DNA of 64,000 nt from Polaromonas sp. JS666. GTDB lineage: Bacteria > Pseudomonadota > Gammaproteobacteria > Burkholderiales > Burkholderiaceae_C. Positions 53,941 through 59,106 of this stretch are shown in pieces; position 1 is the first letter of the stretch; every line of letters begins with the position of its first letter. A program made the position numbers and the translations under genes. The DNA lies in contig NC_007948.1 in assembly GCF_000013865.1 (NCBI RefSeq), positions 1,426,001 to 1,490,000 of the forward strand, written 5' to 3'. The notes beneath the pieces are model-generated. The model searched no databases. It saw only the letters and a program-made list of their open reading frames with translations, and had not been told where the DNA came from.

Positions 53941-55029
53941 ATGAAAACGTACAAGATCGCGTGCATCCCCGGTGACGGCATCGGCAAGGAAGTGGTACCG
54001 GCCGGCCAGACCGTGCTCGAAGCACTGGCCGCCACGCAGAACAAATTCAAATTCGAGTTCACCTCGTTTGACTGGGGCGGCGACTATTTCCGCCAGCACG
54101 GCGTGATGATGCCGGAGGACGGCCTGGATGCGCTGCGCGACAAGGACGCAATCCTGTTCGGCTCCGCCGGCGACCCGCACATCCCGGACCACATCACGCT
54201 GTGGGGCCTGCGCCTGAAGATCTGCCAGGGCTTTGACCAGTACGCCAACGTGCGCCCCACGCGCATCCTGCCCGGCATCGACGGCCCCCTGAAGCGCTGC
54301 AAGCCTGAAGACCTGAACTGGGTCATCGTGCGCGAAAACTCCGAGGGCGAGTATTCGGGCGTCGGTGGCCGCGCCCACCAGGGCCATCCGATCGAGGTGG
54401 CCACTGATGTCTCGATGATGACCCGTGCCGGTGTGGAGCGCATCATGCGTTTTGCCTTCAAGCTGGCGCAATTACGCCCCCGCAAGCTGCTGACCGTGAT
54501 CACCAAGTCCAATGCCCAGCGCCACGCCATGGTGATGTGGGACGAGATCGCCCTGCAGATCTCCAAAGAGTTCCCGGACGTCAAATGGGACAAGGAACTG
54601 GTGGATGCCTCGACGGCGCGCATGATCAACCGCCCGGCCTCGCTCGACACCATTGTGGCAACCAACCTGCACGCCGACATCCTGAGCGACCTGGCCGCCG
54701 CGCTGGCCGGCAGCCTGGGCATTGCGCCCACCGGCAACATTGACCCCGAACGCCGCTATCCGTCGATGTTCGAGCCCATCCATGGCTCGGCCTTCGACAT
54801 CATGGGCAAGGGCCTGGCCAACCCGGTCGGCACCTTCTGGTCCTGCGTGATGATGCTTGAACACCTCGGTGAGCCTGAGGCCGCCAGGGTGTTGATGGAT
54901 GCCGTGGAGGCCATCACCGCCGACCCGGCGCTGCATACCGGCGACCTGGGCGGCAAGGCCACGATGGCACAGGTCACCGAAGCCGTCTGCGCGCTTTTTG
55001 CCGCGGCCCCGGTGCGCCAGGCGGCGTGA
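53941..55029 (+). CDS. ttuC: Tartrate dehydrogenase/decarboxylase family (isopropylmalate dehydrogenase clan)
   Basis: This 362-residue NAD-dependent beta-decarboxylating dehydrogenase starts MKTYKIACIPGDGIGKEVVPAG. The TtuC/D-malate branch is indicated by LWGLRLKICQGFDQYANVRPTRILPGI, VIVRENSEGEYSGVGGR, the Lys-Asn site ITKSNAQRHAMVMWDE, and MFEPIHGSAFDIMGKGLANPVG. It may act on tartrate, D-malate or both. A Bug receptor gene follows by 79 bp and a glycerate kinase gene lies further on, forming a plausible tartrate-to-glycerate route. Confidence 0.9.
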   Translation: MKTYKIACIPGDGIGKEVVPAGQTVLEALAATQNKFKFEFTSFDWGGDYFRQHGVMMPEDGLDALRDKDAILFGSAGDPHIPDHITLWGLRLKICQGFDQYANVRPTRILPGIDGPLKRCKPEDLNWVIVRENSEGEYSGVGGRAHQGHPIEVATDVSMMTRAGVERIMRFAFKLAQLRPRKLLTVITKSNAQRHAMVMWDEIALQISKEFPDVKWDKELVDASTARMINRPASLDTIVATNLHADILSDLAAALAGSLGIAPTGNIDPERRYPSMFEPIHGSAFDIMGKGLANPVGTFWSCVMMLEHLGEPEAARVLMDAVEAITADPALHTGDLGGKATMAQVTEAVCALFAAAPVRQAA

Positions 55030-55108
55030 CAGGCCTGACAGACCAGACGGTAAGGGCCTGACTGGCCTGATGGATGACGAGATGGCAACAATCAACAGGA
55101 GACAAACC

Positions 55109-56080
55109 ATGAAACAGCTTTTAAGTGCAATCGGCCTGGCCTTGCTGGCCCCGCTGGCCCTGGCGCAAGGCGCTCCGGCGACCGCGGGGCCCGGTTGCCT
55201 CGACAAGAATGTGCTGTACTGGCAGGCCTTTCCGCCTGGCGGCGAGTCCGACCTGTCGGCGCGGCATCAACAGGTTGTGCTGAAGAAAAAATGCCCCGCG
55301 ATCGACACCATCATCCAGTACAAGGCCGGCGCGGGCGGCGGGCTGATGTGGGGCCAGATGAACCAGTTGCCGGGTGACGGGCTGAACGTGGTCGGCATCA
55401 ACCTGCCGCATATCGTGTTCCAGCCGCTGGAGGGACAGGTGCAGTACAAGACGCAGGACATCACGCCGGTGTTCTGGTTCCACTACACGCCCGACATCCT
55501 CGTGGTGCCCGAGTCCAGCCCGATCAAGACTTTTGCCGATTTCCTCAGTGCGGCCAAGGCCAAGCCCGGCCAGCTCAGCCTGGGCGGCTCGGGCCTGAAC
55601 TCGGCCAACCACGCGGCGCACGAGCGACTGAATGCGGCTTTCGGCGTCAAGACCAACTACATCCCCTACAAAGGCACGGGCGACATGGCCACGGCGGTGA
55701 TCGGTTCCCAGATCGACGGTGCCATGACCTACACGCCGTTTGCCATCAGCAACAAGACCCGCCTGCGGCCGCTCGCCGTGGCCATGGAAAAACGCCACCC
55801 GCTGATGCCCGAGGTGCCCACCTTCAAGGAGCTCGGTGTGGACTGGGTCGACGGCGCCTACCGCGGCATTGGTGTGCCCAAATCCACCCCGCCCGAAGCA
55901 CGCAAGCGCCTCTCGGACCTCTGGGCCGCCATGAACAACGACCCTGAAATGAAGGAGCTTGCGGCCAGGAGCGGGTTCGAGCTGGTCAATGTCGGCGCCG
56001 ATCAGATGGACGCTTTCATGAAAGACAAGGTGCGGCTGTACACCGACGGCGCGCAGCGGCTGGGTCTGGGCAAGAAGTAG
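55109..56080 (+). CDS. Bug-family tripartite tricarboxylate receptor, probably for tartrate or a related acid
   Basis: This 323-residue receptor has a signal peptide (KQLLSAIGLALLAPLALA) and Bug features: YWQAFPPGGESDLSARHQQVVLKKKCP, IIQYKAGAGGGLMWGQMNQLPGDGLNVVGINLPHIV, QLSLGGSGLNSANHAAHERL and VPTFKELGVDWVDGAYRGIGVP. CAGGAGA precedes the start at 55109; the longer frame overlapping ttuC is rejected. Location after ttuC suggests a hydroxy-acid ligand. No membrane partners are nearby. Confidence 0.92.
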   Translation: MKQLLSAIGLALLAPLALAQGAPATAGPGCLDKNVLYWQAFPPGGESDLSARHQQVVLKKKCPAIDTIIQYKAGAGGGLMWGQMNQLPGDGLNVVGINLPHIVFQPLEGQVQYKTQDITPVFWFHYTPDILVVPESSPIKTFADFLSAAKAKPGQLSLGGSGLNSANHAAHERLNAAFGVKTNYIPYKGTGDMATAVIGSQIDGAMTYTPFAISNKTRLRPLAVAMEKRHPLMPEVPTFKELGVDWVDGAYRGIGVPKSTPPEARKRLSDLWAAMNNDPEMKELAARSGFELVNVGADQMDAFMKDKVRLYTDGAQRLGLGKK

Positions 56081-56280: not shown

Positions 56281-57597
56281 ATGACCGCACCCAACCCCGC
56301 CTCCCAGCCGCGCCAGTTTCTGGAGCATCTCTACCACGCGGCAGTGCAACGCGCGCTGCCTTTGCACAACACGGCGGCGTATTTACCCAAACCACCCAAG
56401 GGCCGAACCATCGTCCTGGGTGCCGGCAAGGCCGGGGGTTCCATGGTGCAGGCGGTCGAGGCCCTCTGGCCCGCTGACGCGCCGCTGGAGGGGCTGGTGG
56501 TCACGCGCTATCACCATATTCCACCGCGGCCTGCGGGTTTGAAGCAACGCATAGAACTGGTCGAGGCGGCGCACCCGGTGCCGGATGCGGCGGGCCTGGC
56601 GGCTGCGCAGCGCATCCTCGCCATGACGCAGGGCCTGACTGCCGACGACCTGGTGCTGTGCCTGATTTCCGGTGGCGGCTCGTCTCTCCTGACATTGCCC
56701 GCCGAGGGCCTCACGCTGGAAGACAAGCAGCGCATCAACAAGGACCTGCTGAACAGCGGCGCCAACATTGGCGAGATGAATTGCGTGCGCAAGCACCTGT
56801 CGCGCATCAAGGGCGGGCGGCTGGCCGCGGCCTGTGCGCCGGCGCGCGTGATCACGCTCACCATCAGCGACGTGCCCGGCGATGACCCCTCCATCATTGC
56901 CAGCGGCCCGACCGTGCCCGATGCCAGCACCTGCGCCGAGGCTGTGGCCATCCTCGCGCGCTACGGCATCGCGATCCCGGGCGGGCTCATGAGCCTGCTG
57001 GAGCAGGGCGCGCTCGAAACGCCCAAGCCCGGCGATGCGGCCTTCAACGGCCATGAGGTCCACATGATTGCCACACCGCAGCAAAGCCTCGAAGCCGCCG
57101 CCGCCGTTGCCAGGGATGCGGGGCTGACGGCCTACATCCTCAGCGATGAGATGGAAGGCGAGTCGCGCGAAGTCGGCAAGGTGCATGCGGCACTGGCCCG
57201 CGCGGTGGCGCTCAAGGGCCAGCCTTTCCAGAAACCTTGCGTGATTCTGAGCGGTGGCGAAACCACGGTCACCATCAAAAAGCAGCCCGATGGCACCCCC
57301 AAAGGCAGGGGCGGGCGGGCCGGCGAATTCTGCATGGGGCTGGCGCTGGGGCTGCAGGGGCAGGCGGGCGTCTACGCGCTGGCCGCAGACACCGATGGCA
57401 TTGACGGTGTGGAAGACAACGCGGGCGCGTTCGTCGCCCCCGACACGCTGGAACGGGCGCTGGCCAAGGGCATGAAGCTGAACCGCTACCTGGACCGCAA
57501 CGATGCTTATGGCTACTTTGAGCCTCTGGGGGATCTGGTCATCACGGGGCCGACGAACACCAATGTCAATGATTTCCGGGCGATCCTGGTGCTGTAG
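56281..57597 (+). CDS. Glycerate 2-kinase (GckA/TtuD family)
   Basis: This 438-residue enzyme of the MOFRL family phosphorylates D-glycerate to 2-phosphoglycerate. Motifs are RTIVLGAGKAGGSMVQAVE, CLISGGGSSLLTLPAEGLTLEDKQRINKDLLNSGANIGEMNCVRKHLSRIKGG, SDVPGDDPSIIASGPTVPD, and the C-terminal MOFRL stretch CVILSGGETTVTI with ALAADTDGIDGVEDNAGAFV. It could serve both tartrate breakdown (ttuC upstream) and glyoxylate from allantoin. In older annotation the family is named hydroxypyruvate reductase TtuD. Confidence 0.93.
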   Translation: MTAPNPASQPRQFLEHLYHAAVQRALPLHNTAAYLPKPPKGRTIVLGAGKAGGSMVQAVEALWPADAPLEGLVVTRYHHIPPRPAGLKQRIELVEAAHPVPDAAGLAAAQRILAMTQGLTADDLVLCLISGGGSSLLTLPAEGLTLEDKQRINKDLLNSGANIGEMNCVRKHLSRIKGGRLAAACAPARVITLTISDVPGDDPSIIASGPTVPDASTCAEAVAILARYGIAIPGGLMSLLEQGALETPKPGDAAFNGHEVHMIATPQQSLEAAAAVARDAGLTAYILSDEMEGESREVGKVHAALARAVALKGQPFQKPCVILSGGETTVTIKKQPDGTPKGRGGRAGEFCMGLALGLQGQAGVYALAADTDGIDGVEDNAGAFVAPDTLERALAKGMKLNRYLDRNDAYGYFEPLGDLVITGPTNTNVNDFRAILVL

Positions 57598-57765
57598 CCC
57601 CGTGCAGCGGGGCTTCCTGGCCGGTGCCGAGCCGCCTCAAAGCGGCGAGCCTTGCAGGCCGCGCTACTGCGAGACGCAGTGGCTCTTCGTGCCGTCCAAG
57701 CCTGCGCAGGCAGGCTTGGAGCCGCGGCACTCAGCCCCCTCGGGGGCCATAAAGTCTGCGTCATG
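57597..57765. repeat. Cluster of intergenic hairpins
   Basis: Three perfect hairpins follow the kinase gene: GCCCCG-TGCAG-CGGGGC at 57597-57613, TCCAAGCCTGC-GCAG-type stem near 57698-57722, and GCCCCC-TC-GGGGGC near 57737-57750. None has a T-run. It lies upstream of the pseudo-TIR gene. Confidence 0.65.
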
Positions 57766-57804
57766 GACGCGTTAAAGTTCAGGCTGGTTGCATAAGGAGT
57801 CTGC

Positions 57805-59106
57805 ATGTCCAACGGTAAAAACACATCGCCACCGGCTGGCGCCCACGATAAGGCTTCGATCGCGAGCGCGATCGACAAGGTCAACCGGCAGGTCAAGGCG
57901 CTGCGGACTTTCGATGTCTCGGTCGCGAAGAATGGATGGGACTCGACCATGGATGCCTTGCAAAAGAAAGTCAACGCCATCCTCGCCGACAGCCTCGGCA
58001 TGGGCACGCCTGAGTACAGGCAATATGCCGTGGCGACGCAGGACTTCCTGCTGGATACGACTTTTGGTGACCGCTACACGGTCGACGAGCGCAAGCAAAG
58101 AGTCAAGCATGGGGTCGATCGGGCCATCGCCAACCTGAATGCGACCAAGAAGCTGTTGACGGACCGCCTGGAGGGCCGCGCCGCTGCCGCGCCGAAGGCT
58201 GCCCCGGCTGCTGAGGTGAAGCCGCCGCCAGCGCCGGCACCGGCAGCAGCGCCAGCACCAGCACCAGCACCAGCACCAGCACCAGCACCAGCACCAGCAC
58301 CAGCGCCAGCGCCAGCACCAGCGCCAGCACCAGCACCAGCACCAGCACCAGCACCAGCACCAGCACCAGCACCAGCACCAGCACCAGCACCAGCACCAGC
58401 ACCGGCACCAGCACCGGCACCAGCACCAGCGCCAGCACCGGCACCGGCACCAGCGCCAGCACCGGCACCAGCACCAGCACCAGCGCCAGCGCCAGCACCA
58501 GCACCAGCACCAGCGCCAGCACCAGCACCAGCACCAGCACCAGCGCCAGCACCGGCACCGGCACCGGCACCAGCGCCAGCACCAGCGCCAGCGCCGGCAC
58601 CGGCACCGCCGCCGGCCCCGGCACCGACGCCGGCCCCGGCACCGACGCCTTCAGTTCCCCCTGTTACCATGATGCCCATGTCCAAGGCCGATCCCTCATC
58701 CATCACAGCCCAGCAAGCCGTTCCCGGCACACGCGTGGCCGTCCTTGGCTGGGGCGGCGACGCTGCGGGCCAGGCGTGCGAGTTCATGGAGCAGCTGGGG
58801 CTGGAGGCGGCGGTACTCGACACCGTCTCTGTCGATCAACTTGATGCTTTGCGCAATGTGGCGTTCCTGCTGCTCCTGCCGGGGGAAGAGCCCGAGGCAC
58901 CGGCAGCCATGCTGGCCATCGGATTCATGCTTGCCGTACTCGGCCGCAGTCGCATCGTCTGCCTGCTGTCCGACCAGGAGGCATTGCCGGACGCCTTGAA
59001 GGGCGCAACACGTATCACGGTCGATGAGGCGGGCTTGTGGCGGCTGCTGCTGGCGCGCGAGATGAAGCGGGCAGGCCTGGACGTGGACCTGAACCGCGCC
59101 ATCTAA
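57805..59106 (+). CDS. Three-part protein: helical domain, long Pro-Ala linker, TIR-like (CAP12/PCTIR) pseudo-enzyme domain
   Basis: This 433-residue protein starts after AAGGAG. Residues about 20-125 are helical (WDSTMDALQKKVNAILADSLGMGTPEYRQY, RVKHGVDRAIANLNATKKLLTDRLEG) and resemble the segment that precedes TIR-like domains in predicted nucleotide-binding proteins. Residues about 140-282 are almost pure alternating Pro and Ala. Residues 308-433 match Pfam CAP12/PCTIR TIR: a Rossmann-like start (RVAVLGWGGDAAGQACEFMEQLGLEAAVLD) and the family end LGRSRIVCL, DEAGLWRLLLAREMKRAGLDVDLNRAI. The usual FELG carrying the NADase Glu reads LAIG (Ala371), so catalysis is probably lost. Function unknown. 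Confidence 0.8.
   Translation: MSNGKNTSPPAGAHDKASIASAIDKVNRQVKALRTFDVSVAKNGWDSTMDALQKKVNAILADSLGMGTPEYRQYAVATQDFLLDTTFGDRYTVDERKQRVKHGVDRAIANLNATKKLLTDRLEGRAAAAPKAAPAAEVKPPPAPAPAAAPAPAPAPAPAPAPAPAPAPAPAPAPAPAPAPAPAPAPAPAPAPAPAPAPAPAPAPAPAPAPAPAPAPAPAPAPAPAPAPAPAPAPAPAPAPAPAPAPAPAPAPAPAPAPAPAPAPAPAPPPAPAPTPAPAPTPSVPPVTMMPMSKADPSSITAQQAVPGTRVAVLGWGGDAAGQACEFMEQLGLEAAVLDTVSVDQLDALRNVAFLLLLPGEEPEAPAAMLAIGFMLAVLGRSRIVCLLSDQEALPDALKGATRITVDEAGLWRLLLAREMKRAGLDVDLNRAI
58222..58650 (+). repeat. GC(A/G/C)CC(A/G) hexamer array encoding the Pro-Ala linker
   Basis: About 430 bp of near-perfect hexamer repeat, mostly gcacca with gcgcca and gcaccg variants, encode the linker. Unit length keeps the reading frame whatever the copy number. 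Both complementary strands are open in several frames, producing spurious Gly-Ala and Leu-Val frames. Confidence 0.95.

Follow-up and report, generated by a model that had tools for sequence, protein, structure and literature searches.

A putative non-catalytic TIR-type protein encoded beside tartrate and glycerate genes in Polaromonas sp. JS666

In Polaromonas sp. JS666, we analysed a stretch of 64,000 nucleotides from contig NC_007948.1 (positions 1,426,001 to 1,490,000), here called the window, and focused on a single open frame that we term gene X. Its 433-amino-acid protein joins a helical domain to a C-terminal domain of predicted TIR fold through a long Pro-Ala linker, and the gene follows ttuC, a TctC-type receptor gene and a glycerate kinase gene on the same strand (Table 1). 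Gene X is present in one copy in its own genome. Our homologue search scored 7996 candidate proteins, and among the best 120 of 151 matches, homologues P0002 to P0048, including proteins from Polaromonas and Ramlibacter, share the three-part layout, except that P0031 is short at the N-terminus and P0035 is fused with glycerate-kinase sequence; P0035 was kept out of several family alignments and P0031 out of some. Gene X is a real gene, because homologues of the same layout exist and both of its domains are under purifying selection. A by-eye inspection saw no signal peptide, and the protein is probably cytosolic.

Table 1. Features of gene X and its upstream neighbours; positions count from the first letter of the window.
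Feature	Position	Strand	Basis
ttuC, tartrate dehydrogenase	53941..55029	+	TIGR02089, 551.7 bits vs cut-off 470.4
TctC-type tripartite tricarboxylate transporter receptor (Bug)	55106..56080	+	PF03401
Glycerate 2-kinase, TtuD-like	56281..57597	+	DUF4147 + MOFRL; NCBIfam glycerate 2-kinase models match below their cut-offs
AAGGAG, resembling a ribosome-binding site, 5 nucleotides ahead of the gene X ATG	57794..57799	+	Direct reading of the sequence
Gene X: helical domain, Pro-Ala linker, pseudo-TIR (433 amino acids)	57805..59106	+	Single open frame
N-terminal helical domain (predicted), residues 20-125	57862..58179	+	Model, predicted local distance difference test (pLDDT) 82; PDC-S35 N-terminal part, E 2.9e-4
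Pro-Ala linker, residues 126-301	58180..58707	+	Translation; residue composition
6-/18-nucleotide tandem repeat, bulk of linker	58228..58649	+	Repeat analysis
C-terminal domain, predicted TIR fold, residues 302-433	58708..59103	+	Model, Foldseek/VIA, hhalign
Ala371 codon, catalytic Glu position	58915..58917	+	Alignments

A reading made from the sequence alone (the sequence-only reading) had proposed a TIR-like pseudo-enzyme of the CAP12/PCTIR family and had staked this kinship on a match to PF10137. Neither the window protein nor its C-terminal domain matched PF10137 at E 1 or 0.1, and the curated cut-off of 24.7 bits was not reached, so kinship has to be judged with profiles. There the single-sequence negative was overturned: hhalign aligned the family profile with 12 canonical CAP12-type TIRs over 127 columns at E 1.8e-22, with shuffled controls at E 0.13 or above. 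One relative, P0047, matches PF10137 directly at 46 bits. The PADLOC profile PDC-S35 matched the whole gene X protein at E 1.6e-15, covering both domains, and the N-terminal domain alone at E 2.9e-4. Across the family, 15 of 20 N-terminal domains gave a match to the corresponding part of PDC-S35 (E 0.1 or below), in keeping with the proposed likeness of the N-terminus to the helical partner domain of such proteins. Profile-profile comparison, the PDC-S35 match and intermediate sequences together show that the C-terminal domain of gene X shares descent with CAP12/PCTIR TIRs. Its model was confident (pLDDT 86; predicted template modelling score, pTM, 0.80), Foldseek and VIA both returned TIR domains as top matches, and the predicted fold is TIR rather than Rossmann.

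The open frame, its three-part layout and the motifs picked out beforehand (LGRSR, D-x-AG-x-W...AGLDVDLN, and LAIG replacing FELG) were all found in place. Ala371 aligns with the catalytic Glu in the multiple alignment and also when profile A1 (21 of 24 representatives, without P0020, P0028 and P0032; profile A2 holds 20 of 28) is compared with SfSTING (7un8), at E of only 0.013; its equivalence to E84 uses an inferred offset of 8 between the 7un8 chain index and the numbering of the paper. As described in sections of PMC9402430, the NAD (nicotinamide adenine dinucleotide) pocket of SfSTING includes E84, R78 and N80 together with D110 from the dimer mate, and the equivalents of all four are absent from the gene X protein. 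Among the relatives with Ala at the Glu position (the Ala group), our column table shows the R-A-R stretch deleted and Q-N replaced, mostly by Pro-Ala; the BB-loop G-T-I-I-E-K is gone, the HG after strand 1 has Gly for His in 97%, and the DD-loop Asp is mostly Val (57%; Ala397 in the window). In the same table, no acidic residue newly reaches 90% or more in the Ala group. With pocket residues and the BB-loop lost, the canonical NADase mechanism should not work in the gene X protein, which probably does not cleave NAD. Elsewhere the domain is strictly maintained: Gly373, W412, R418, M420, A423, G424, D428 and N430 are invariant (100%) in 35 Ala-group rows, and the 21 A1 rows have eight invariant positions, six of them within residues 412-428.

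Comparing the Ala371 position across homologues, as the sequence-only reading had advised, traced the loss to one clade. Sixteen loci that were duplicated, fragmentary, masked or frameshifted were set aside; of the 78 family rows, 49 then carried Ala (48) or Thr (1), 27 carried Glu, and Gln and Ser occurred once each; the 12 canonical rows comprised 11 Glu and 1 Gly. The Ala/Thr rows form a single clade (36 rows, support 100/99) in a tree of few columns and long branches, for which rows from the 78-row set that were more than 96% alike or shorter than 105 amino acids were also dropped. A quick tree built on a larger set of 85 rows, from which rows more than 92% alike were dropped, placed 35 of 35 Ala/Thr rows together (support 98) with five Glu/non-Glu changes tree-wide, the remaining ones involving Ser, His, Gln and the Gly of canonical L055. 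L045, identical in sequence to L008 (LLATGF), has Ala at this site. L055 (from G138) is otherwise a canonical CAP12-type TIR that reads VIFGLGYF at this site, an independent natural loss. Relatives at the tartrate locus that still have the Glu are mostly without the R-x-N and BB-loop residues too; loss of catalysis may therefore predate loss of the Glu itself. Ratios of non-synonymous to synonymous substitution (dN/dS; Nei-Gojobori, 21 pairs of 7 genes) were 0.03-0.30 for the C-terminal and 0.03-0.73 for the N-terminal domain, and the pseudo-TIR was the more constrained in most gene pairs. By this measure, both domains of gene X are under purifying selection.

The very long Pro-Ala linker highlighted at the outset proved to be two things: a genuine tether and a local excess of length. 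A linker rich in Pro, Ala and Thr is general across the family, and residues 126-303 of the window protein are 44% Pro and 44% Ala. Under one automatic definition, linkers in 46 family proteins span 33-167 amino acids with a median of 76, the window protein being longest at 167 vs 33-143 in the other 45. Underlying it are a 6-nucleotide unit (63.3 copies, 58228-58607) and an 18-nucleotide unit (23.3 copies, 58231-58649). P0002, whose best local alignment to the window protein is 96% identical over 34% of the query, has a linker of 62 amino acids. Because of the 6-nucleotide repeat and the short linker of this close relative, the extreme length is a recent, lineage-level expansion of the repeat. 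On the opposite strand, a frame at 58074-58823 (249 amino acids of Gly-Ala repeats) mirrors the linker, which we judge mechanical. At loci L029 and L030, the reading frame differs between the N- and C-terminal domains on either side of the repeat-rich linker, reflecting a frameshift or an assembly error.

Linkage to tartrate and glycerate genes recurs well beyond the window. Named loci came from one scan with C-terminal motifs, which misses relatives without them; in 23 of 32, ttuC, glycerate kinase (at least 70% identity) or Bug (at least 55%) lies near gene X, always on its strand. Across 60 genomes of a related genus (that of G183), gene X occurs in 37, ttuC in 51 and glycerate kinase in at least 54. 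There, 32 of 37 gene X places lie no more than 25 kb from ttuC or glycerate kinase, a count that omits garK rows at or below 68% identity, the partial G521 and second gene X fragments in G523 and G532. The linked genes share the strand of gene X in 50 of 50 cases, in several gene orders. In G482, G487 and G531, gene X stands beside ttuC with the kinase megabases off; in G493, G496 and G484, it stands beside the kinase, and ttuC lies 140 kb away or on a different contig. Because gene X stays with ttuC or the kinase through such rearrangement, the linkage goes beyond what common ancestry at a single fixed site would give. No nucleotide cyclase was found among the three upstream neighbours scanned, with downstream genes judged by eye only.

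We slightly favour the reading that gene X descends from a TIR effector of the PDC-S35/CAP12 type, is no longer catalytic and was recruited into the tartrate/glycerate cluster, where its product would serve as a tethered module for binding or scaffolding; this suggests an immune part recycled for metabolism. Under such a scheme, the helical N-terminal domain would self-associate or bind one partner, the Pro-Ala linker would provide reach, and the pseudo-TIR would retain a docking surface formed by W412, R418, M420, G424, D428 and N430. Once docked, it could hold or tune a pathway enzyme, for which the NAD-dependent tartrate dehydrogenase and the glycerate kinase are the likeliest candidates.

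Several observations weigh against this recruitment. The 207 nucleotides between glycerate kinase and gene X (57598-57804) are one; the same gap holds G+C-rich palindromes (for example AGCCCC...GGGGCT) resembling a repetitive extragenic element. At L004 the linkage is loose: the kinase lies 4.6 kb from gene X with opposite-strand frames between, so there is no operon there. Six of the 32 named loci have a HerA-like ATPase ahead of gene X instead (Curvibacter, Hylemonella and other Burkholderiales), and three have neither this ATPase nor tartrate/glycerate genes nearby. Five of the 37 places in the related genus are unlinked: G283 and G494, both far inside long contigs, and G501, G512 and G519. 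The window's own genus is poorer still: among 87 genomes, Ala-type gene X occurs in 6, ttuC in 52 and both in 4, leaving 48 of 52 ttuC genomes without gene X and two gene X genomes (G016 and G031) in which ttuC was not seen. Eight of those 48 loci were inspected and carry ttuC and glycerate kinase without gene X; in three of the eight, the receptor between them differs (about 30% identical). Because most ttuC genomes of this genus lack it, gene X is accessory and not required for using tartrate. Finally, a Glu-to-Ala mutant of a CAP12-type TIR, inactive otherwise, keeps some NADase activity with polyethylene glycol, according to parts of PMC13142454.

That last result, together with the report in the same source that TirD toxicity is independent of its Glu, is what would favour a C-terminal domain that still works as an enzyme through other residues. 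We consider this very unlikely, as the equivalents of E84, R78, N80 and D110, the four SfSTING pocket residues mapped here, are absent and no new acidic residue reaches 90% in the Ala group. Less likely still is that gene X is a decaying passenger of a useful cluster. The stepwise erosion of its active site, a linker that behaves as a drifting microsatellite and the split frames of L029 and L030 fit such decay, whereas the low C-terminal dN/dS disfavours it, as do the invariant positions of the A1 rows and a linkage that survives changes in gene order. An NAD(H)-binding sensor, in which the first beta-alpha-beta unit would carry a glycine loop of Rossmann type with an acidic residue ending strand 2, is improbable, though somewhat likelier than these two. 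Of 35 Ala-group rows, 20 have the full fingerprint, among them P0002, which stands for the window's lineage; none of 12 canonical rows or of the 8 and 16 rows of two Glu groups has it (all counts from rows less than 95% alike, without the Gln and Ser rows), and residue shuffles produce it in 0.66%. The C-terminal domain of P0045, from the Ala clade, passes the cut-off of TrkA_N, a Rossmann NAD-binding family (26.1 vs 23.8 bits), and the neighbouring ttuC encodes a tartrate dehydrogenase, an NAD-dependent type of enzyme. Nevertheless, those 20 rows are one lineage rather than 20 events, Glu-type row L049 carries the glycine part alone, and the wider Ala clade (L007, L008, L033, P0034 and P0038) lacks the fingerprint. 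Neither the window sequence nor three close Polaromonas-type relatives have a Pfam Rossmann match, and the predicted fold is TIR. It is correspondingly improbable that an immune NAD-cleaving TIR came to read NAD(H) as a regulator or scaffold of NAD-dependent catabolism, having lost its catalytic site and, in one lineage, gained a Rossmann-like glycine loop in its place on the same fold.

The immune sensor or decoy first suggested for this protein is not favoured, given where the gene sits. Gene X could still act against phage, its dead TIR being a sensor, a decoy or a restraint on active TIRs, with the tartrate genes mere neighbours; we regard this as unlikely, although its top PADLOC match is a defence candidate, canonical Glu-bearing CAP12-type TIRs are found in 5 of the 87 genomes from the window's genus, and the Curvibacter relatives follow a HerA-like ATPase, a kind of protein that occurs in known defence pairs. 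Yet a search limited to PF10137 gave no match in the same genome, and hence no CAP12 TIR to brake; gene X occurs in 37 of the 60 genomes from the related genus, where most copies sit at a metabolic locus; and a scan for close relatives found none on viral contigs. An unannotated 4.6-kb record named Salmonella phage S.Kent 1-2-1 (OR850936.1, hit H1) partially matches the TIR C-terminus. The HerA-preceded relatives are Glu-type (L012, L013, L017, L028, L029 and L031; the L028 ATPase is PF05872) and may represent a HerA plus TIR-like pair.

Set against known systems, the gene X protein shares with CAP12/Pycsar effector TIRs (PF10137; for example, the TIR-STING protein SfSTING) the alignable TIR fold and the C-terminal D-x-x-G-x-W...A-G-x-x-V-D-x-N block; unlike them, it has no direct PF10137 match and has lost pocket residues and the BB-loop motif, and it also lacks a STING domain, which SfSTING has, and lies in a metabolic neighbourhood. 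Both its domains match PDC-S35, a phage defence candidate of PADLOC 2.0.0 (PDLC05004-05007), whose profiles span 231-278 positions vs 433 amino acids with a long linker and lost catalytic residues here; no paper was found under the name PDC-S35. That nothing comparable exists was too strong a statement: P0063, which a search with the full window protein retrieved at E 6e-9, and P0122-P0126 also combine a helical domain, a Pro/Ala linker and a TIR (layout judged by eye), but they keep the Glu and have a precomputed PF10137 match, and extreme linker length is local. The locus resembles ttu tartrate utilisation clusters, in which ttuC acts and of which ttuD of Agrobacterium vitis is a known member, in its TIGR02089 tartrate dehydrogenase and MOFRL glycerate kinase, and differs from them in its additional pseudo-TIR gene and TctC receptor. 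TtuD as the glycerate kinase of tartrate clusters is discussed in a portion of PMC2063504. Dictyostelium TirB/C/D likewise put a CAP12/Pycsar-type TIR to new physiology, but with the Glu conserved and TirC an active NADase, in the account given in parts of PMC13142454.

We found no earlier description of the gene X protein in the literature searched, where, in the portions covered, bacterial TIR domains are mostly NADases of immunity or virulence factors. A defence library flags proteins of the gene X type as phage defence, which calls for caution. If our reading is true, this conserved clade without an active site would be a bacterial case of an immune enzyme given a non-enzymatic role in metabolism. 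Related bacteria carry versions with and without the Glu in the same cluster, so the transition to a pseudo-enzyme could be tested in natural pairs.
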